NCBI RefSeq assembly: GCF_026967935.1
Contig: NZ_JAPVBL010000003.1
Span: 62,001 to 126,000 of the forward strand
Direction: 5' to 3'
From: Modestobacter sp. VKM Ac-2982
GTDB lineage: Bacteria > Actinomycetota > Actinomycetes > Mycobacteriales > Geodermatophilaceae
DNA length: 64,000 nt
Position 1 is the first letter of the stretch. Every line of letters starts with the position of its first letter. A model generated the notes under the pieces. It searched no databases. It was given only the letters and a program-made list of their open reading frames with translations, and had not been told where the DNA came from. The position numbers were made by a program, and so were the translations under genes. This document shows positions 30,379 to 40,941 of this stretch, piece by piece.

Positions 30379-31137
30379 TCAGCCCTGGCGGGCGGCGTTG
30401 GTCTGGACGGCGGTGCTCACGTACTGCGCCAGACCCGGCGCGATCCGCTCGTAGTACGCGGTGAACCGCTCGTCCTCGACGTACATCCGGCCCAACCCGG
30501 TGTGCACCTCCGGCGAGCAGTCGTAGAAGTGCCGGCTGATCTGCTGCCGGTGCTCCTCGGCCAGGTCCATCGCCGCGGTGGAGTCGGCCGGCACACCGGC
30601 GGCCAGTGCGGCGGCGAACCGGCGCTCGACGTCGTCGGACTCGGCCTTGACCCGCAGCCAGTCCTCCTTGCTCATCGCCGCCGTCCGGCGCTGGGACTGT
30701 GCCCAGGCGTCGGTGTCGCCCCACTTCTCCTCGGCCTCCGCTGCGTACTCCTCCGGGAGCCAGTCGCCGAACACCTCGAACCGTTCCTCCGGGGTCAGGG
30801 AGATCCCCATCTGCCGTGCCTCCATCTCCTTCTCCACGGCCGCGACCATCGCCTGCGTGCGATCGAGCCGGTCCCGCAGCAGCCGGTGCTGCCGGCGCAG
30901 GTGCACCGCGGGGTCGGCGTCGGGGTCGTCCAGCAGGGTCGCGACCTCGTCGAGGGGGAACCCGAGCTCGCGGTAGAACAGCACCTGCTGAAGCCGGTCC
31001 AGGTCGTGGACGTCGTAGCTGCGGTAGCCCGCCGACGTCCGCTCGCTGGGCTGCAGCAGCCCGATCCGGTCGTAGTGGTGCAGCGTGCGCACCGTGACCC
31101 CGGCCAGCCGGGCCAGCTCACCCACCGTCCAGCTCAT
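30379..31137 (-). CDS. MerR-family regulator with TipAS-type antibiotic-binding domain
   Basis: A 252-residue regulator. The N-terminal winged helix is canonical (WTVGELARLAGVTVRTLHHY, DRIGLLQPSERTSAGYRSY), followed by a coiled coil and, from about residue 110, a TipAS domain (EERFEVFGDW, EEHRQQISRHFYDCSPEVHTGLGRMYV). In Streptomyces TipAL this domain binds thiopeptides and other drugs and activates transcription. A palindrome between the -10 and -35 region of its own promoter (31175-31191) suggests autoregulation. No obvious resistance gene is attached. Confidence 0.9.
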   Translation of the reverse strand: MSWTVGELARLAGVTVRTLHHYDRIGLLQPSERTSAGYRSYDVHDLDRLQQVLFYRELGFPLDEVATLLDDPDADPAVHLRRQHRLLRDRLDRTQAMVAAVEKEMEARQMGISLTPEERFEVFGDWLPEEYAAEAEEKWGDTDAWAQSQRRTAAMSKEDWLRVKAESDDVERRFAAALAAGVPADSTAAMDLAEEHRQQISRHFYDCSPEVHTGLGRMYVEDERFTAYYERIAPGLAQYVSTAVQTNAARQG

Positions 31138-31271: not shown

Positions 31272-32171
31272 ATGGCCGACGACGTCCGCACGCCCCTGTC
31301 CGCCGACGACCCGTTCCCGCGCTCGCGGGTGCAGGTCGCCGACCAGGAGATGGCCTACGTCGACGTGGGGGAGGGCGACCCGATCGTCTTCCTGCACGGC
31401 AACCCGACGTCGTCCTACCTGTGGCGCAACGTCATCCCGCACGTGCGGCAGCTGGGCCGCTGCCTCGCCCCCGACCTGATCGGCATGGGGGAGTCGAGCA
31501 AGCTGGCCGACCCCGGGCCGGGCAGCTACTCCTTCGACCGGCACGCGCAGTTCCTGGCCGAGTTCCTGGACACCGTCGGCGCCACCGAGCGGGTCACCCT
31601 GGTGCTGCACGACTGGGGCTCGGGGCTGGGCTTCGACTGGGCCGCCCAGCACCCCGACGCCGTGCGCGGGATCGCCTTCATGGAGGCGATCGTCACCCCG
31701 ATGCTCTGGGCGGACTGGCCGCGGGCGGCGAAGCCGGTCTTCCAGGCGATGCGCGGGGCGGACGGCGAGCGGAAGGTGCTCGACCAGAACGTGTTCGTGG
31801 AGAAGATCCTCGCCGCCGAGGTGCGGCGCGGGCTGTCCGCGGAGGCGCACGACCGGTACCGGGCGCCGTTCCGCGAGCGGGCCGACCGCTGGCCGACGCT
31901 GGAGTGGCCGCGGCAGCTCCCGATCGAGCACGTGCCGCCGGGGGTGCACGACGTCGTCGACCGCTACGGCCAGTGGCTGGCGCACAGCGACGTGCCCAAG
32001 CTGTTCGTCAACACCGAGCCGGGGTCGATCCTGGTCGGCCGCCAGCGCGAGAAGGTCCGGCGGTGGCCGGCGCTGACCGAGGTCACCGTGCCGGGTGGGC
32101 ACTTCGTGCCCGAGGACTCACCGGACGAGATCGGCCGCGCGCTGGCGGAGTGGATCCCGACGCTGCGCTGA
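31272..32171 (+). CDS. dhaA: Haloalkane dehalogenase, subfamily II
   Basis: A 299-residue alpha/beta hydrolase. Catalytic and halide residues fit HLD-II enzymes (DhaA, LinB): FLHGNPTSSYLWR supplies the halide-binding Asn, LHDWGSGLG supplies nucleophile Asp114 and halide Trp115, FMEAI supplies the acid Glu138, and GGHFVPEDSP supplies His277. Spacing of these residues parallels Asp106/Glu130/His272 of DhaA. It cleaves carbon-halogen bonds, releasing an alcohol and halide; natural substrate unknown. It is divergent from the TipA-like regulator across 134 bp holding two palindromes, but control by that regulator is only a guess. Confidence 0.92.
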   Translation: MADDVRTPLSADDPFPRSRVQVADQEMAYVDVGEGDPIVFLHGNPTSSYLWRNVIPHVRQLGRCLAPDLIGMGESSKLADPGPGSYSFDRHAQFLAEFLDTVGATERVTLVLHDWGSGLGFDWAAQHPDAVRGIAFMEAIVTPMLWADWPRAAKPVFQAMRGADGERKVLDQNVFVEKILAAEVRRGLSAEAHDRYRAPFRERADRWPTLEWPRQLPIEHVPPGVHDVVDRYGQWLAHSDVPKLFVNTEPGSILVGRQREKVRRWPALTEVTVPGGHFVPEDSPDEIGRALAEWIPTLR

Positions 32172-32219
32172 CCGACGCAGCGCTGACCGACGCAGCGCTG
32201 ACCGACGCAGCGCTGACCG
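32168..32219 (+). repeat. 15-bp tandem repeat (3.5 units) at the dehalogenase stop
   Basis: The unit CTGACCGACGCAGCG repeats exactly three times from 32168, with a partial fourth. The first unit contains the dhaA stop codon, so the gene end has been amplified downstream into the gap before the GGDEF-like gene. Confidence 0.9.
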
Positions 32220-32225
32220 GGCCGT

Positions 32226-32813
32226 TCAGTCGTCCGAGCCGGTGCCCTGGCGGTCGTGCTGGATCGAGGTCATGGCCTCGTTGGCCGAGGCGACCAGCGA
32301 CTCCGGCGTCGAGGCCCGGCCGGAGAGCGCCACCCCGACGCTGAGCCGCACGTGGTGCTCGACGCCCGGCCCCGGCCGCAGCGGCGCGTCGAACGCGGCC
32401 GCGACGCGCAGCGCGATGCCCTGCGCGTCCTCGGCGGTCTGGAGGCCGGGGCACAGCAGCACGAAGGTCTGGGCGCTGATCCGGGCGACGACGTCCCCCT
32501 GCCGCACGGCGCCGACCAGCCGGCCGGCCGCCTCGGCGCGGGCGGCGTCGGCGACGGCGGAGCCGTGGGTGTCCGCCAGGACGGCGAGGCCGTCGAGGTC
32601 GCAGGAGAGGACGGCGAGCCGGCCGGTGGTCGTGCCGGCGGCGGCCAGGGCGAGCTCCAGCCGGTCGATCAGCAGGCTGCGCACCGGCAGGCCGGTGAGC
32701 GGGTCCGCCACGGTCCGCTGCCGCAGCCGCTGCGCGAACTGGCGCTGGGCGGCGACGACCGCCGCCGTCTGCACCAGCACGTCCTGCGACTCCTCGAGCC
32801 TGATCGTCTGCAT
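32226..32813 (-). CDS. GGDEF-like protein with degenerate active site
   Basis: A 195-residue protein. A short coiled N-terminus leads into DPLTGLPVRSLLIDRLELAL, the usual start of GGDEF domains, and SCDLDGLAVLADTHGSAVAD, the metal-binding region. The active-site loop that should read GG[DE]EF is SAQTF (in RISAQTFVLLC), so cyclase activity should be lost. The later RLSVGVALS strand is kept. It may bind GTP or c-di-GMP, or act as a partner of one of the active cyclases at 35223 and 38084. It starts at ATG 32813. Confidence 0.78.
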   Translation of the reverse strand: MQTIRLEESQDVLVQTAAVVAAQRQFAQRLRQRTVADPLTGLPVRSLLIDRLELALAAAGTTTGRLAVLSCDLDGLAVLADTHGSAVADAARAEAAGRLVGAVRQGDVVARISAQTFVLLCPGLQTAEDAQGIALRVAAAFDAPLRPGPGVEHHVRLSVGVALSGRASTPESLVASANEAMTSIQHDRQGTGSDD

Positions 32814-33175: not shown

Positions 33176-33775
33176 TCAGCCGGTCAGGGCCCGGACGGTC
33201 TCCACCACCGCGATGACGGCGAACACCAGGAACAGGCCGGCGGCGATCCGGTGCAGCAGCGCCACCGGGAGACGGTCGGCGAGCTTGCGGCCCAGGAACG
33301 CGGCCAGCCCGGAGATCACCAGCAGCGCCGCCCACGCCCCGACGAAGACCGACAGCGGCTCCTCGTAGCGGGCGGCCAGCCCGGCGGTGGCCAGCTGGGA
33401 GAGGTCACCCCACTCGGCGGCGAACAGCACGCCGAAGGAGATCGCCGCCGCGCGCACGAACGAGGTCTGTTCCCGTGTCTGGACGGTGGCGGCGTCCTCG
33501 TCGCCGCCCTTGCGGGACTCCCGCCACAGCAGCACCGCGCCGGTCAGGAAGAGCACCGCGACCACGGCGCTGACCACCGCCTCGGGCAACAGGGAGAGCA
33601 GGCTGCCGGCGGTCACCGCGATCGCCACCTGCAGGCCGAAGGCCAGGCCGACGCCGACGAACACCGGCAGCGGCGGGAAGCGGGTGGCCAGCACCAGGGT
33701 GGCGAACAGCGTCTTGTCGGGCAGCTCGACGGGGAGGATCAGCACGAAGGCGGCCAGGACGACGGACAGGACCAC
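33176..33775 (-). CDS. GDT1/TMEM165 (UPF0016) family divalent-metal exporter
   Basis: A 199-residue membrane protein with the two family repeats: ELPDKTLFATLVLA in the first helix pair and EWGDLSQLATAGLAA in the second (consensus E-x-G-D-[KR]-[TS]; the first repeat has Pro for Gly). About six hydrophobic helices. Bacterial members (such as MneA/Mnx types) export manganese. A yybP-ykoY manganese riboswitch in the leader supports that substrate strongly. GTG 33775 was chosen because the family sequence starts there; the open frame extends far upstream as a shadow of larC. Confidence 0.87.
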   Translation of the reverse strand: MVLSVVLAAFVLILPVELPDKTLFATLVLATRFPPLPVFVGVGLAFGLQVAIAVTAGSLLSLLPEAVVSAVVAVLFLTGAVLLWRESRKGGDEDAATVQTREQTSFVRAAAISFGVLFAAEWGDLSQLATAGLAARYEEPLSVFVGAWAALLVISGLAAFLGRKLADRLPVALLHRIAAGLFLVFAVIAVVETVRALTG

Positions 33776-33849
33776 GAGTTCTCTCTCTGCTCGCGCCGAC
33801 CGGCGGGGCTGAGGGGCGCCTCCGTCCGGCAGCGCACCGATGGGTGGAC

Positions 33850-33955
33850 TGCGGGCGGAAGGTCTCGCCCACCCGCGGCGACGCGGGCCCGCTGACCGGG
33901 CGCGCGAGCGCGCCAGCATGTCGACCAGCGGTCGGGGGGCTACTCCCCTTCTCGG
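33850..33955 (-). ncRNA. yybP-ykoY manganese riboswitch
   Basis: On the minus strand the hallmark AGAAGGGGAGTAGC (from about 33953), then GGTCGACATGCTG and the 3' hallmark GGGCGAGACCTTCCGCCC (ending about 33853) occur in the right order and spacing for the manganese-sensing aptamer. It precedes the GDT1-family exporter gene, the classic target. The larC stop codon TAG (33942-33940) is the UAG of the conserved GGGGAGUAG. Ends are approximate. Confidence 0.88.
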
Positions 33956-35142
33956 TCCAGGAGCGTAGCCGACGCCCCCGGGTGGACCCGGTGTGCGGCT
34001 GCGGTCGCCGCCCGCAGCACCTCTTTGGCCGGCAGGCCGAGGGAGCGGGCCAGGGCGGCCACGTCCTCGAACTCCACGCTCACGTTCACGACGCGGCCGT
34101 CGAGGCGCGCGACCTTGACGCCCACCGAGCCGCCGAGGACCGCGACGCTGTGCTCGGTCCGCTGCAGCGCGACCTTCTGCACCGGCTGCACGCGCAGCCC
34201 GATGGTCGAGGTTGCGGCCACGACGACGTCCTGCACCGAGGCGCGCACCGAGGGCGGGCACAGCACCGACAGGGTGTGCGCCGGGCGGCCCTTCTTCATC
34301 AGGATGGGGGTGAGCCAGGCGTCCGAGGCGCCGGCGGCCAGCAGGTCGGCGAGGACCCCGGGCCACAGCCGGGGGTCCAGGTCGTCGACGTTGGTCTCCA
34401 GCAGCAGCCCGGTGGCCGGCTCGTCCACCGGCTCGCCGAGCACCAGCCGCACCAGGTTGGGCAGCTGCTCCGGATCCCGGCCACCGGCGCCCGAGCCGAC
34501 CCGGGCGACCCGCATCGGCGGCAGCGTCGTCCACTCCTGGACGTGCGCCGCGACCAGCGCCGCGCCCGTCGGGGTGCACGTCTCGGCCGGCACCGGCCCG
34601 GCGACCACCGGCACCCCGCGCAGCAGCTCCAGGACGGCGGGACCGGGCACCGGTACCACGCCGTGCGCCCCGCGGGCCGACCCGCTGCCCAGCGCGACCG
34701 GGGAGGCGCTCAGCCGCTCCAGCCCGAGGTGGGCGAACCCGGCGACCACACCCACCACGTCGGCCAGCGCGTCCAGCGCGCCGACCTCGTGGAAGTGCAC
34801 CTCGTCGGCGGGGACCCGGTGCACCCGGCCCTCGGCGACCGCCAGCCGCTCGAAGACGGCCCGGGCACCGTCCCGGACCGCGGGGGGCAGCGCGGCGTGG
34901 GCCAGGACCGACCGGACGTCGGCCCAGGTGCGGTGGACGTCGCTGGCCGGGGCGTGCACGTGCACCCGGGTGGCGCCCAGCCCGTGCCGGCTCGTCGCCT
35001 CGGCGGTCAGCCTGACCCGCTCGACCGGCAGCGCAGCCACGGCCGAGGCGAGCACCTCCAACGGCACCCCGGCGTCGACCAGCGCCCCGAGCAGCATGTC
35101 CCCGGAGGCGCCCGCGGCGAGGTCCAGCCACCCGATGGTCAC
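33940..35142 (-). CDS. larC: Nickel-pincer cofactor biosynthesis protein LarC
   Basis: A 400-residue single-chain LarC, the CTP-dependent nickel insertase that completes the pincer cofactor of lactate racemase. Motifs: LDLAAGASGDMLLGALVDAG at the N-terminus, DEVHFHEVGALDALADVVG, CTPTGAALVAAH, LLLETNVDDLDPRLWP, and MKKGRPAHTLSVL. Length is typical. In several bacteria it is split by a programmed frameshift; here it is one frame. It starts at ATG 35142, 80 bp downstream of the GGDEF-LarB gene. No LarE or LarA gene is visible, so the pathway must be completed elsewhere or be used differently. Its stop lies inside the downstream riboswitch. Confidence 0.92.
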   Translation of the reverse strand: MTIGWLDLAAGASGDMLLGALVDAGVPLEVLASAVAALPVERVRLTAEATSRHGLGATRVHVHAPASDVHRTWADVRSVLAHAALPPAVRDGARAVFERLAVAEGRVHRVPADEVHFHEVGALDALADVVGVVAGFAHLGLERLSASPVALGSGSARGAHGVVPVPGPAVLELLRGVPVVAGPVPAETCTPTGAALVAAHVQEWTTLPPMRVARVGSGAGGRDPEQLPNLVRLVLGEPVDEPATGLLLETNVDDLDPRLWPGVLADLLAAGASDAWLTPILMKKGRPAHTLSVLCPPSVRASVQDVVVAATSTIGLRVQPVQKVALQRTEHSVAVLGGSVGVKVARLDGRVVNVSVEFEDVAALARSLGLPAKEVLRAATAAAHRVHPGASATLLDREGE

Positions 35143-35222: not shown

Positions 35223-38087
35223 TCAACTCGGTGGGAGGGCGGCCGTCCTCCGGGCGATGCGGGCGGCGAACACGCCGGCGGACCAGCCGTTGTCGATGTT
35301 GCTGACCACGACGCCGGGTGCGGCGGAGTTGAGCATGGTGAGCAGCGCGCTGAACCCGCCGAAGGAGCTGGCGCCCTGGCCGGCCGACGTCGGGACGGCG
35401 ACCACCGGCACCTCGGTCAGCCCGCTCACCACGCTGGCCAGCGCAGCGTCCAGGCCCGCCACCACGACGAGGCAGTCGACGTCGGTGAGCAGCGACCGGT
35501 CGGTCAGCAGCGGGTGGATCCGGCTGCCGCCGACGTCGTCGACCCGCACCACCTCGGTGCCGGTGACCCGGGCGACGAAGGCCGCCTCGGCGGCGATCGG
35601 GGTGTCGCCGCTGCTGGCGCAGAGCACGCCGACCCGGCCGACCGGCTCGGGCACCGGGCCGACCGCGGCGGACATCGCCGCGGCGTCCATCGTCGTGTAG
35701 GCGTCGTGCTCGGTGGCCAGCGCGACGAGGGTGTCGGCGCTGGCCCGCACCACCACCGCCGGGTGGCCGGGGTGTTCCCGGCGGGCCTCGCGCACCAGGG
35801 CGAGCACCTGCTCGGTGCTGCGACCGGTGCCCCAGATGACGTCCGGGCCGGTCGCCAGGACCGGCGCGACGGGGACCGGGGACAGCACCGGCGGCGGCAC
35901 GGCCGCCGCGGCGGGGGCGGGGCTGGCCACCGGCTCGGCGACCCGGGGCGCTGCCGGGTGGGTCGGGGGGCCGCCGAACAGCTCGTCCAGCGGGCTGGGC
36001 AGCCGGGGGGACGGCTGGTCGGCCGGGGCGTCGTCGGCGGCCGGCTCGACCAGCAACGGGGCGAAGCCACCGGTGGCGTCCTCGGCCTGCTCGTGGCGGT
36101 CCTCAGGGAGCGGGGAGGTCACCTCACCCACGGTGGACGACGTCGGGACGGCCACCGGCGCCGTGTCCTCCGCGGTCGGGTCGGCCTCGGCCACGGGGGC
36201 GTCGATGGCGTCCGGGGCGGTGTCGACGGCCCGCGTCTGGGTGACGCCGGAGAGCCGGACGACCCGGTCCCGCCCGGCCCGCTTGGCGTCGTAGAGGACC
36301 CCGTCGGCGGCGGCGAACAGGGTGCGCCGGTCGTCGCCGCGGGCCGCCTGGGCGATGCCGACGCTGATCCGCACCGGCACCTCGACGCCCAGGGCGGACC
36401 AGTCGTGCGTGGCGATCGAGCGGCGGATGCGCTCCATCGCCCGCTCGGCCTGCTCGGAGGTGGTGTCCGGCAGCAGGATGACGAACTCGTCACCGGCCCA
36501 GCGGCACACCTCGTCGGTGTCCCGGCAGCCGTCGACCAGCAGCTGGCCGACCGCCCGGAGCACGGCGTCGCCGGTCGGGTGCCCGGCGGCGTCGTTGATC
36601 GCCTTGAACCGGTCGATGTCGACCACGGCCAGCGCCGGCACCGCCCCCGCCGACAGCAGCCCGTCGAGCCGGGCCTCCGCGTAGCGGCGGTTGGGCAGGT
36701 GGGTGAGCGGGTCCTCGTAGGCCTGGCGGCGCAGCTGGCCGGCGGCCCGCTCGGTCTCCAGCAGGCTCTTGCGCCGGCCGAACAGCTCGACCCAGCGGGT
36801 GCGCCGCTCGTCGACCCGGTCCAGCTCGTCGGCGAGGTAGGCCTGCAGGTAGGGCAGTGCCCGGGCCGCGTCGTCCAGCTCGGCGTGCAGCGTGCAGAGC
36901 TCGCGCAGCGCGGCCCGGCGCAGCCGCGGGAGCCCGTGCTCGGTGGCGGTGGCCAGCGCGGTGGCCAGGTGGTCGTCGGCGGCCCGCGGGTCACCCGAGC
37001 GGCGGAGCGCCCGGCCCAGGCCCAGCTCTGCGGAGGCCAGGAGCGCGAGGTCGTCCGCGCCCTTCGCGGCGGAGACGACGCTGCTCAGCAGCGACCGGGC
37101 GGCGGCGTGCTCACCCAGGCCGACCAGCGCCCAGCCGTGCACGACCTGGGCGTCCAGCAGCCCGGGGACGCCGGGGTACAGCTGCCCCAGCGCCCGGACG
37201 GCGAGGTCGCGGGCCTCGGCGAAGTGCGGGGCCGCGGCGTCGGCGCCGCCGTCGTCGAGCAGCCCCTCGCCGACCTCGGCGCAGAGCGCGGCCAGCCGGG
37301 TGGCGGCCTCGGCGGCGAGCGCGTCGACGGCGTCGTCCGCGGAGACCGGGCTGGCCGCGCTGATCGCCTCGGCGGTCAGGTCCGCGGCCCGGCGCTGGTA
37401 GTCCAGCGCCAGCGGCATGAGCTCCAGGTCGGCGAGCACGGCGGCCAGCGAGCTCAACGTGTGCACCAGCAGCGGGCTCGGCGGCAGGGCCGGGTCCAGC
37501 AGGCTGGCCGACTCGACCGCCTCGTCCATGGCCGCGTCGACCCGGCGGGACAGCAGTTCGATCCGGGCGTGCCGGACCAGCCCGGCGGCCCGCTGCAGGT
37601 CGTCGTCCTGGGCGTCGAAGGCCGCGCGCGCCGAGCGGACCAGGGAGATGGCCAGCGCCGCCTGAGTGGCCGACTCCGAGCGGCTGTCGCGGTCCACGGC
37701 CTCGTCCGGGTCGTGCTGGTCCAGCGGGCCCTCCTGCTCGGGGCCGCCCTCGACCAGGGGGTCGCCCAGCAGGGAGTAGCCGGCCCGCCGGAGGCGCCGG
37801 ACCAGCAGCTCGGCGCGGAGGGTGTCCGCCCAGGCGCGGGCGAGCGAGGTGAGCGGCGCCGCCGAGTGGTCGTCGACCGGGGCGGCCGGCAGCTCGCCGT
37901 CGATCTCGCGCAGCAACGCCTCGGCCGTGTCCAGCTGCCAGTTCGTGAGCGCTGAGCTCACTTGCTGGTGCAGGAGACCGGGTGGCACCAGGGCACTGTG
38001 CCCCGGAGTCGGCGGCGTGTCACGCACCGGCGCGTCGGCCGGCCCCTCCTGCCCCACGGACCTCTCCCGGACCCGCCACGACCTCAC
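35223..38087 (-). CDS. Diguanylate cyclase (GGDEF) fused to a LarB domain
   Basis: A 954-residue fusion. Residues 1-440: helical, TPR-like sensor region. About 455-615: GGDEF domain with DPLTHLPNRR, DIDRFKAINDAAGHPTGD, the active loop AGDEF (531-535) and an intact inhibitory site RDTD (522-525), so c-di-GMP synthesis with feedback is expected. About 620-745: Pro/Ala-rich linker. About 748-954: LarB domain (PDVIWGTGRSTEQVLALVR, GVLCASSGDTPIAAEAAF, VAVPTSAGQGASSFGG, VSNIDNGWSAG). LarB carboxylates and hydrolyses NaAD to make the pincer precursor; its catalytic Cys lies in a LNSC motif, but here the motif is LNSA (Ala922). The start chosen is GTG 38087, overlapping the upstream stop (GTGA); GTG 38057 is an alternative. 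larC follows 80 bp downstream. Confidence 0.85.
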   Translation of the reverse strand: MRSWRVRERSVGQEGPADAPVRDTPPTPGHSALVPPGLLHQQVSSALTNWQLDTAEALLREIDGELPAAPVDDHSAAPLTSLARAWADTLRAELLVRRLRRAGYSLLGDPLVEGGPEQEGPLDQHDPDEAVDRDSRSESATQAALAISLVRSARAAFDAQDDDLQRAAGLVRHARIELLSRRVDAAMDEAVESASLLDPALPPSPLLVHTLSSLAAVLADLELMPLALDYQRRAADLTAEAISAASPVSADDAVDALAAEAATRLAALCAEVGEGLLDDGGADAAAPHFAEARDLAVRALGQLYPGVPGLLDAQVVHGWALVGLGEHAAARSLLSSVVSAAKGADDLALLASAELGLGRALRRSGDPRAADDHLATALATATEHGLPRLRRAALRELCTLHAELDDAARALPYLQAYLADELDRVDERRTRWVELFGRRKSLLETERAAGQLRRQAYEDPLTHLPNRRYAEARLDGLLSAGAVPALAVVDIDRFKAINDAAGHPTGDAVLRAVGQLLVDGCRDTDEVCRWAGDEFVILLPDTTSEQAERAMERIRRSIATHDWSALGVEVPVRISVGIAQAARGDDRRTLFAAADGVLYDAKRAGRDRVVRLSGVTQTRAVDTAPDAIDAPVAEADPTAEDTAPVAVPTSSTVGEVTSPLPEDRHEQAEDATGGFAPLLVEPAADDAPADQPSPRLPSPLDELFGGPPTHPAAPRVAEPVASPAPAAAAVPPPVLSPVPVAPVLATGPDVIWGTGRSTEQVLALVREARREHPGHPAVVVRASADTLVALATEHDAYTTMDAAAMSAAVGPVPEPVGRVGVLCASSGDTPIAAEAAFVARVTGTEVVRVDDVGGSRIHPLLTDRSLLTDVDCLVVVAGLDAALASVVSGLTEVPVVAVPTSAGQGASSFGGFSALLTMLNSAAPGVVVSNIDNGWSAGVFAARIARRTAALPPS

Positions 38088-39874
38088 GAGGCGACCTCCG
38101 CGCCGTCGTCGAAGGCCCAGCCGGGCCGTCGGGGGGTCGTGCCGAGCACCTCCGCCACCAGGTCGTCGACCGAGGCGTCGGCCGGCAGCACGCCGGACCG
38201 CGCGGTGGACGCAGAGGGCTGCTGCAGCCCACCGGACGCCCACACCCGGTTGCGGCCGCCCCGCTTGGCGCCGAACAGGTTCAGGTCGGCCCGGTCGAAC
38301 AGCTCCCGCCAGGTCTGCTGCCCCGGGGCGCCGGCCGGGCCGGTGGTGGCCACGCCGATGCTGACGGTCACCGGTGCGGGCATCTGCAGGTCGCCCCACT
38401 CGGCGCAGGCGACGGCGCTGCGCAGTCGTTCCATCGCGACCAGGGCCTGTGCCTCGGTGGTGCTCGGCAGCACGACCACGAACTCGTCACCGGCCCAGCG
38501 GAAGACCTCGTCGCCGGTGCGGCTGTGCTGGCGGAGCAGCTCGGCGACCCGGCGCAGCACCGCGTCGCCGTGCAGGTGCGAGTTCTGGTCGTTGACGGCC
38601 TTGAAGCCGTCGACGTCCACGACGGCCAGCGACACCGGGTCGCCGTCCAGCGGCAGCTCGGCCAACCGCCGCTCGGCGCTGCGCCGGTTGCCCAGGCCGG
38701 TCAGCGCGTCCTCGAGGGCATGCCGGCGGAGCACGGCGGTCTGCCGCTCCGCCTCGCGCAACCGGCTGCGGCGCACGAACATCTCCGCCCAGAGCTCCCG
38801 CCCGCGCCGGTGCGCCCGGGTGGTCTCGGCCCGGTAGGCCTCCAACCAGTGCAGCGCCTCGGTCGTCGACCCCATCGCCGCGGTGGTCTGCCCCAGCTCC
38901 AGCAGGCACTGGCGGTACCGGCGGCGGTCGTTGACGGCAGCGAAGGCGCCGGAGGCGTCCACCAGCAGGCCGACGGCCTCCTCGCCCGCACCGCGGTCGG
39001 CGCCGGGCCGGCCGGCGCACGACCGGCTCAGCAGCCTGGCCAGGACCAGGCCGGTGTACCCGACCAGCCACATCCCGCCGTCCCCGGCGGCCAGGTGGCG
39101 GCGCACCCGACGCAGCGGCGGCAGCGCGTCGTCGAGCTGACCGGCCAGGGTCAAGGCCCAGGCCTGGACGACGTCGAGCAGGTCGGCGTCGGCGTCGCTC
39201 GGCTCCCAGGGCAGCGCGCGGGCACTGGTCGCACACTCCAGCGCGGCCTGGGCCAGCTGGTGCGAGCGGTCGGACTGGCCGCGCCGGTGCACCGTCTGGG
39301 CGAGCTCGGCGTGCTGCTGGGCGCACAGCCGGAGCAGCTGCCACTGGTCGCCGAGGTCGGGGAGGGCGGCAGCGACCCGGGCGCCGCGGAGCGACTGGGC
39401 CACGGCGAGCTCCTCGAGGTCCAGCCGGGTCAGCGCGAGGGACAGCCAGTGGTGGGCCTGGTGCAGCGGACGGCTGGGTGGCTCCCCGGACAGCTGGTCG
39501 GCGAGCAGGCTGGCGTCCACGGCCAGGTGCATCGCCGCGTCGAACCGGTCGGCGGCCACCTCCAGGTGCGCCAGGTAGGCCAGCGTCAGGGCGTGCTCGG
39601 CGGACGGGAGGCACTCCGCGAGCGCGGCCCGGGCCGCCCCCACGGCGTCCGCAGCGCCGTCCAGGTCGTCGTCGAAGAGGGCGGCGCGCGCGGTGAAGGC
39701 GGCCGACCACGCGTCCCAGCAGGGCTCGCCGGAGGCGCTCAGGTCGTCCGCGGCCCGGCCGAACTCGTCGGCGAACACCTGGGCGTCCTCGGCGGCGCTG
39801 GCGGTCAGCAGCCGCCAGCGGGCGGTCTGCAGCCGCTCGTCGGCGGGGAGCCCTGGGGTCACGCGTCCCTCCAC
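38084..39874 (-). CDS. Diguanylate cyclase with TPR-like N-terminal region
   Basis: A 596-residue protein built like the N-terminal two thirds of the next gene: a long helical, Ala/Arg-rich TPR-like region (about 1-380), then a GGDEF domain with DALTGLGNRRSAERRL, DVDGFKAVNDQNSHLHGD, active loop AGDEF (461-465) and inhibitory site RTGD (452-455). No membrane segment or signal is seen, so the sensor is cytoplasmic. It should synthesise c-di-GMP. The stop overlaps the start of the GGDEF-LarB gene by 4 bp, so the two cyclases are made together and probably arose by duplication. It starts at GTG 39874 or 39862. Confidence 0.88.
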   Translation of the reverse strand: MEGRVTPGLPADERLQTARWRLLTASAAEDAQVFADEFGRAADDLSASGEPCWDAWSAAFTARAALFDDDLDGAADAVGAARAALAECLPSAEHALTLAYLAHLEVAADRFDAAMHLAVDASLLADQLSGEPPSRPLHQAHHWLSLALTRLDLEELAVAQSLRGARVAAALPDLGDQWQLLRLCAQQHAELAQTVHRRGQSDRSHQLAQAALECATSARALPWEPSDADADLLDVVQAWALTLAGQLDDALPPLRRVRRHLAAGDGGMWLVGYTGLVLARLLSRSCAGRPGADRGAGEEAVGLLVDASGAFAAVNDRRRYRQCLLELGQTTAAMGSTTEALHWLEAYRAETTRAHRRGRELWAEMFVRRSRLREAERQTAVLRRHALEDALTGLGNRRSAERRLAELPLDGDPVSLAVVDVDGFKAVNDQNSHLHGDAVLRRVAELLRQHSRTGDEVFRWAGDEFVVVLPSTTEAQALVAMERLRSAVACAEWGDLQMPAPVTVSIGVATTGPAGAPGQQTWRELFDRADLNLFGAKRGGRNRVWASGGLQQPSASTARSGVLPADASVDDLVAEVLGTTPRRPGWAFDDGAEVAS

Positions 39875-39987: not shown

Positions 39988-40941
39988 ATGCCGACTGCAC
40001 CACGCAGCACAGCCCCGACGGAGTTCGCCTATCTGGGTCCCGAGGGTACCTTCGCCGAGGCCGCGCTCGGCACGGTCACCGGGGCGCTGGGAGTGGTCGG
40101 CACCCGACCGGAGGCCAGCGTCGAGGCCGCGCTGACGGCCGTGCGGACGGGGGGGTGCGCAGCCGCCCTGGTGCCGCTGGAGAACTCCGTCGAGGGCTCC
40201 GTGCCGGCCACGATGGACGGGCTGGTCGCCGGCGACCCGCTGGTGATCACCCGCGAGGTCTTCCTCCAGGTGGCCTTCGTGCTCGCCGTCCGGCGGGGGA
40301 GCACAGCGGCCGACGTGCGCACCGTGGCCAGCCACCCACATGCGCTGGCCCAGTGCCGCAGCCGGCTCGCCGAGGCCCTGCCGGGGGCCGACGTCGTCCC
40401 GGCCGCCTCCACGGCCGACGCCGCCCGCCGCGTCGCCGAGGGCGAGTTCGACGCCGCGGTCTGCGCGGCGATCGCCGCCGACCGCTACGGCCTGGACACG
40501 CTCGTCCCCGACCTGGCCGACCACCCCGGCGCCGTGACCCGTTTCGTGCTGGTGGAGCCGCCCGGCGCGCTGTCGGCCCCGACGGGGGCGGACAAGACCA
40601 CGATCTGGGCCGTGGTGCACGACCGCACCGGTGCGCTGCTGGACCTGCTGGCCGAGTTCGCGGTGCGCGGCATCAGCCTGGCCCGCATCGAGTCCCGGCC
40701 GACCCGTGAACGGCTCGGCGTCTACTCGTTCTCCATCGACATCGAGGGCCACGTCACCGACCGGCGGGTGGGCGACGCACTGGCCGCGCTGCACCGGATC
40801 TGCGCCGAGGTGCGCTTCCTCGGCTCCTACCCCCGGGTCGACGACCAGCCGGGCAAGCCGGTGGAGGAGCGGGTGGGCGACCAGGCCTTCGCCGCAGCGG
40901 AGGAGTGGGTGGCCCGGCTCCGCGCCGGGACGGCGGTCTGA
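39988..40941 (+). CDS. pheA: Prephenate dehydratase
   Basis: A 317-residue enzyme that converts prephenate to phenylpyruvate in phenylalanine synthesis. The catalytic domain shows FAYLGPEGTFAEAAL, LVPLENSVEGSVPATMD and a TRFVLVEPPG region (TRF motif). The C-terminal ACT domain with GISLARIESRPTRERLG (the ESRP motif) binds phenylalanine for feedback inhibition. Length fits the monofunctional actinobacterial type; there is no chorismate mutase domain. The gene is monocistronic; a small GTGCCC-TCTC-GGGCAC hairpin at 40975-40990 may end it. Confidence 0.94.
   Translation: MPTAPRSTAPTEFAYLGPEGTFAEAALGTVTGALGVVGTRPEASVEAALTAVRTGGCAAALVPLENSVEGSVPATMDGLVAGDPLVITREVFLQVAFVLAVRRGSTAADVRTVASHPHALAQCRSRLAEALPGADVVPAASTADAARRVAEGEFDAAVCAAIAADRYGLDTLVPDLADHPGAVTRFVLVEPPGALSAPTGADKTTIWAVVHDRTGALLDLLAEFAVRGISLARIESRPTRERLGVYSFSIDIEGHVTDRRVGDALAALHRICAEVRFLGSYPRVDDQPGKPVEERVGDQAFAAAEEWVARLRAGTAV

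Follow-up and report, generated by a model that had tools for sequence, protein, structure and literature searches.

A GGDEF protein of Geodermatophilaceae with a LarB-derived domain that lacks catalytic residues: a probable pseudoenzyme regulatory domain

LarB carboxylates nicotinic acid adenine dinucleotide (NaAD) with CO2 and hydrolyses its phosphoanhydride, releasing AMP and pyridinium-3,5-biscarboxylic acid mononucleotide (P2CMN), according to an excerpt of PMC11796402, whose reference list holds a title reporting a transient cysteinyl-pyridine intermediate. Complexes of S127A variants are named in the titles of LarB structure entries, which marks position 127 as an experimental target. 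This report concerns a gene in a 64,000-nucleotide stretch of Modestobacter sp. VKM Ac-2982 (contig NZ_JAPVBL010000003.1, positions 62,001 to 126,000; hereafter the window), in which a diguanylate cyclase (GGDEF) domain and a LarB-like domain share one chain and both Cys221 and Ser127 of the LarB part have been replaced. The protein is probably a diguanylate cyclase whose LarB part acts as a pseudoenzyme regulatory domain.

The fusion gene occupies positions 35223-38087 of the minus strand, which the original prediction had left unstated, with its stop-side end at 35223. Read from the GTG at 38087 it encodes 954 amino acids, and this codon shares four bases (GTGA) with the stop of an upstream gene for a tetratricopeptide repeat (TPR)-GGDEF protein; read from the GTG at 37988 it encodes 921 amino acids, a start that a 921-residue database protein fits. 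The encoded parts, all on the minus strand, are an N-terminal helical-repeat (TPR-like) region (36879-37988, model residues 1-370), a long signalling helix (36720-36869, residues 374-423) that is strongly conserved in a 37-row alignment and of low model confidence at 402-410, the GGDEF domain (36243-36719, residues 424-582), a linker of variable length in the alignment and disordered in the model (35850-36236; predicted local distance difference test score about 30), and the LarB-fold domain without catalytic residues (35226-35849). The TPR region scores 21.2 bits against the TPR_12 cut-off of 30.1 and is helical in the structure model, and PF17874 or PF13424 is present in several relatives of the protein.

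The GGDEF domain passes its curated cut-off (PF00990, 133.2 bits against 23.8). The AGDEF loop and RDTD inhibitory site had been read correctly, RDTD lying five residues upstream of AGDEF (RDTDEVCRWAGDEF; 36483-36524, minus strand). All 37 rows of the alignment keep the presumed active-site, metal and inhibitory-site residues, with AGDE, the FK-x2-ND-x2-GH stretch, a C-terminal Lys-Arg and R489/D492 of the RxxD site, and the last signature residue is Phe or Tyr. By its sequence, the domain looks like an active cyclase with feedback inhibition.

The LarB-like domain scores 168.2 bits in the protein scan, just below the cut-off of 175 for NCBIfam NF033503 (LarB), with profile positions 12-208 of 209 matched, and 172.4 bits in the genome scan, also under the cut-off, which two relatives pass (G020, 178.7; G013, 177.3). 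The Pfam AIRC match has 38.6 bits against a cut-off of 30, and the PurE equivalog cut-off is missed (25.8 against 149.6 bits). In a structure search with the full model, GGDEF proteins took all 50 rows and LarB was not among them; the LarB domain was then folded and searched alone. Likeness to LarB in fold and sequence spans nearly the full length of the domain. GGDEF and LarB profile matches stand in one frame, as the original prediction had it.

Residue losses were counted in the numbering of L. plantarum LarB, after removal of a partial LarB (L111) and of duplicates (L001, L002, L034, L035, L138, L139). Ala922 (codon 35322-35324, minus strand) aligns with Cys221, as had been proposed. The Cys is kept in none of 74 fused domains (Ala in 59, Ser in 5, Thr in 4, Gly in 4, Pro in 2) and in all 82 non-fused rows. 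In 73 of the fused domains the Ser127 position, Gly827 in this protein (codon 35607-35609, minus strand), is taken by Gly, Ala, Val or Pro, and one has a gap; 81 of the 82 non-fused rows keep Ser. With both residues missing, LarB chemistry is not expected of the fused domain. A shift of the catalytic Cys to a nearby site was ruled out, no Cys being found at 216-226 in any of 71 fused domains, as was a recent loss in this strain only, the loss being common to relatives and to the named GTDB loci described below (0 of 79 readable loci keep the Cys; one further locus has a gap). K57, R159 and Y204, near-invariant in LarB, are likewise kept in 0% of fused domains. Over 59 near-invariant positions of ordinary LarB, fused domains keep 29 and have lost 12; every readable fused domain keeps D128, E134, D151, P199-S201, D231 and G233. 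Positions conserved specifically in the fused set include 57, 118, 156 and 181; those at 57, 118 and 156 are Arg, which could be a remodelled pocket or a surface.

A protein database search returned 304 matches with an E value of 1e-3 or lower. PF00731 and PF00990 occur together in every one of the 120 listed, and the organisms named among them are Modestobacter, Geodermatophilus, Blastococcus and Goekera. Named GTDB genomes gave 277 loci when scanned, of which the best 80 were kept; these bear genus or family names of Geodermatophilaceae, except an UNVERIFIED Bacillus sp. AZ43 record and a metagenome-assembled genome labelled "Frankiales bacterium". A whole-genome scan places the pseudo-LarB in 74 of 86 family genomes, that is, 71 fetched from the match list, the genome of the window, and G024 and G053, recognized by the DNA beside larC; G015 (partial match only) and G078 (third match unlisted) were counted as lacking the fusion. 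A single frame without stops holds both the GGDEF and the LarB part in 65 of the 71 fetched relatives and in the other three genomes, 68 of 74 in all. The six exceptions are four loci truncated at a contig end and two (L055, L073) whose LarB part is in another frame. The same single frame was found in 74 of the 80 named loci, the other six ending at contig ends; these loci and the 71 relatives overlap in genomes and are not independent sets. The missed stop once entertained as an alternative therefore fails.

A class-level search of 394 genomes gave matches with E values of 1e-20 or lower in 86, of which 84 lie outside the family. The two family members included scored 366.4 and 316.8 bits and the best outside match 220.2; the fusion type was not met beyond the family in this set. 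The outside loci that were fetched and read, covering 28 of the 84 genomes, keep the Cys in 28 of 28. Among the matches listed for 60 genomes of the same order outside the family, none fell in the score range of the fusion.

The genome was also searched for the other nickel-pincer nucleotide (NPN) genes, as the original prediction had advised, and an ordinary Cys-bearing larB beside larE, one larC beside the fusion and a larA were found. The fusion is therefore not the only LarB of its genome, and the pathway need not rely on the fused domain. At G000:C1:1402125-1403560 (L109), ordinary larB and larE adjoin on opposite strands, on a contig other than that of larC, and larA lies on a third. The pathway was then surveyed in 73 good-quality family genomes; matches below the LarE cut-off occur in every genome, and larE was counted only above it. 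The fusion is present in 67: with larB, larE, larC and larA in 22, with all but larA in 18, lacking only an over-cut-off larE in 1, with larC only in 6, and alone, without larA, larB, larC or over-cut-off larE, in 20. Five genomes have larB, larE and larC without the fusion, and one has none of these genes. The suggested tie to cofactor synthesis was not borne out by this distribution, and the company of LarC and over-cut-off LarE, as for a member of the NPN pathway, is missing in the same 20 of 73. On a tree of the TPR-GGDEF part of the fusion (67 rows; 64 labelled, of which 25 lack larB and larE), at least 10 changes of pathway status are needed, 7 of them forced by supported branches, a count in which gain and loss are indistinguishable. 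In five of the six fusion-plus-larC genomes, 24-40 of 172 near-invariant LarC sites are changed, including a His-rich motif; the sixth has 1 change. Loci L065, L067, L074, L075 and L080 (G061, G084, G040, G065, G075) show LarC without LarB or LarE, changed as if decaying. Genome G017 (L110, L111, L112, L055) carries the fusion, two full and one partial LarB, three over-cut-off LarE and two LarC, and its fusion (L055) has the LarB part out of frame with GGDEF.

A LarB tree was built with 13 catalytic or fused-specific columns removed and 27 fused rows (26 representatives of the 74, and the window), in a short search mode that leaves fine branching unsure. The 27 fused rows form one clade on a long stem (Shimodaira-Hasegawa-like approximate likelihood ratio test 100), nested in a supported set (99) with 11 non-fused LarBs, all 11 adjoining larC; six of these belong to different families of the order and five to Geodermatophilaceae genomes without a detected fusion. 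The LarB that pairs with LarE in this genome and in its relatives is placed elsewhere. Four fusion-less genomes of one genus (L118-L121) have the order pheA, ordinary larB, larC, and fused genomes have pheA, TPR-GGDEF, TPR-GGDEF-LarB, often with larC near. The simplest history, in which the order of events is inferred, would be that a tandem TPR-GGDEF gene captured the ancestral larB in frame. Between pheA and a larB-larC pair, an ancestor of most Geodermatophilaceae would have carried a TPR-GGDEF gene duplicated in tandem, whose second copy would then have joined larB in frame. Another larB, paired with larE, would have served the cofactor pathway, so that the fused LarB could lose its catalytic Cys, Ser and other pocket residues while keeping the LarB fold and part of the conserved framework.

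Selection on the fused domain was compared in 21 genomes that have both ordinary LarB and the fusion. In the core (117-244), 29% of sites differ between fused pairs against 6% between ordinary pairs; in the N-terminal part (49-116) the values are 22% and 28%. The catalytic core is therefore relaxed and the N-terminal part is not. In six groups, four of them pathway-less (35 of the 71 loci used), the median ratio of nonsynonymous to synonymous substitution rates (dN/dS) of the fused LarB domain is 0.08-0.35 (pairs 0.04-0.36), compared with 0.06-0.26 for its own GGDEF domain and 0.21-0.31 for PheA. At the level of codons, the domain is more relaxed than GGDEF in every group, yet under purifying selection.

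These data suggest that a LarB tail without catalytic residues has been kept for another job, as it seems, perhaps as a sensor or an assembly part; the original prediction was right on the fusion, the lost Cys and a possible repurposing. Most likely, the LarB-like domain tunes the cyclase by small-molecule binding, assembly, or both, with control running, as we infer, from this domain to the cyclase. Dimers of the GGDEF domain would make cyclic di-GMP (c-di-GMP) under feedback from the I-site. The LarB-like domain would bind a small molecule without turnover, a pyridine or adenine nucleotide being the first guess, and/or self-assemble as in LarB and PurE; together with input from the TPR region, binding or assembly would set how GGDEF domains come together. 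The retention of D128, D151, the PTS stretch and D231/G233 is the reason for ranking binding ahead of assembly. A specific form of this reading is tentative and less likely than not: the domain would be a new class of c-di-GMP input that binds a pyridine or adenine dinucleotide (NaAD, NAD or a related compound) in the former active site and so reports NAD metabolism to the c-di-GMP output of these actinobacteria; the dinucleotide would be held there because the processing Cys and Ser are gone. Several observations weigh against the regulatory reading. The lost K57, R159 and Y204 possibly served substrate binding, in which case the former ligand might no longer fit. By median dN/dS, the LarB domain outpaces GGDEF in all six groups and also PheA in two of the pathway-less ones (0.35, 0.32). 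The out-of-frame LarB parts of L055 and L073 reflect either assembly error or tolerance of a split, and larC, found near the fusion in 45 of 71 fetched loci, leaves room for a functional link. As to the proposed origin, larB and larC also adjoin elsewhere in the tree (for example G070, G094), so that adjacency alone is no mark of descent.

Five other explanations were considered. A pure assembly scaffold, in which the LarB/PurE fold multimerises and clusters GGDEF domains without any ligand, is a possible though doubtful account: the listed fold matches include two PurE structures whose titles call them octameric, and the relaxed core with a still constrained N-terminal part agrees with it, while the retention of D128, E134, D151, P199-S201, D231 and G233 seems to exceed packing needs and the new arginines could line a pocket as well as a surface. 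The acidic D128, D151 and D231 might instead serve an altered, Cys-free activity such as dinucleotide hydrolysis without carboxylation, since LarB itself performs both reactions (excerpt of PMC11796402); with Ser127, K57, R159 and Y204 gone too and the core relaxed, this is unlikely. It is quite unlikely that the protein regulates the nickel-pincer pathway together with the adjacent larC. The frequency of larC at fusion loci and the position of the sole larC match of this genome speak for such a role; against it stand the 20 genomes that keep the fusion without the pathway, the altered LarC of five of the six larC-only genomes, and an adjacency that may be inherited from a pheA-larB-larC locus. 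Faster evolution than GGDEF, the relaxed core and the two frame-broken cases would also suit a neutral passenger that decays slowly, an account made very unlikely by dN/dS of at most 0.36 in all six groups, pathway-less ones included, and by a domain kept across the family with conserved residues of its own. Finally, a sequencing or assembly artefact joining two genes has next to no probability, as the frame recurs in the overlapping sets of family genomes and named loci, and nothing was found for it in this genome.

Around the fusion, larC (Ni_insertion; 33940-35142, minus strand) is directly downstream, as originally reported, and is the sole larC match in the genome; the next gene downstream encodes a GDT1-type cation/proton antiporter (33176-33790, minus strand). 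The upstream tandem paralogue, with a helical region and GGDEF without LarB (38084-39874, minus strand), overlaps the fusion start by 4 bases, and the divergent pheA (prephenate dehydratase; 39988-40941, plus strand) flanks it as a synteny anchor. The paralogue and pheA were found in 64 of the 71 loci of relatives, the remaining 7 loci being cut at contig ends. A third, short GGDEF-type protein lies near the cluster (32226-32813, minus strand; 79.6 bits), its signature degenerate by eye (SAQTF for GGDEF). A 15-base tandem repeat of about 4.2 copies (32157-32219) overlaps the 3' end of an alpha/beta hydrolase gene, and a MerR regulator with a TipAS antibiotic-recognition domain is encoded at 30379-31137 (minus strand).

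In open-licence literature, LarB with GGDEF, LarB with Cys221, nickel-pincer with c-di-GMP, and aminoimidazole ribonucleotide (AIR) carboxylase with GGDEF were not found together, and the opening parts of abstracts on Modestobacter and c-di-GMP, Geodermatophilaceae and diguanylate cyclase, or diguanylate cyclase and pseudoenzyme do not name the fusion protein. A LarB-derived control domain on a GGDEF cyclase was not met in the literature and protein-database searches made here; the parts are of known kinds, and within these searches their combination appears new, as does a LarB pseudoenzyme in the role of a signalling domain. The case looks like a clean capture of a metabolic enzyme as a regulatory domain, in one clade and with a related genus still showing the likely ancestral locus. 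Many of the genomes also carry an ordinary LarB as an internal control, and the pathway has repeatedly been lost (or gained) while the captured domain was kept. It may offer c-di-GMP research an input domain not met in these searches. It is also a warning for annotation, as the AIRC/LarB domain alone would imply a nickel-pincer enzyme in genomes without the rest of the pathway.

Compared with the described cyclases PleD, SadC, WspR and DgcB, the protein shares the GGDEF fold and signature, the metal and I-site positions and the leading helix, and differs by its LarB-derived C-terminal domain beyond a disordered linker. The statement that LarB normally stands alone needs a qualifier: among long database proteins with ordinary LarB (631 found, 120 listed), LarB is joined to a second domain as in the fusion, most commonly, among the matches listed, to PF01969 (LarC) and once to PF09861 (LarA). 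PF00990 or a GGDEF-type motif occurs in 0 of the 120 listed, which have other partners or none. The core fold of the LarB domain is common to the PurE/AIRC family. Against LarB, the P2CMN synthase (PDB 7MJ0/7MJ1/7MJ2, 8SOQ/8STC/8STD), the fused domains read have all lost Cys221 and Ser127, and also K57, T79, R159, Y204 and G235, are joined to a cyclase, and can occur without LarC and LarE.
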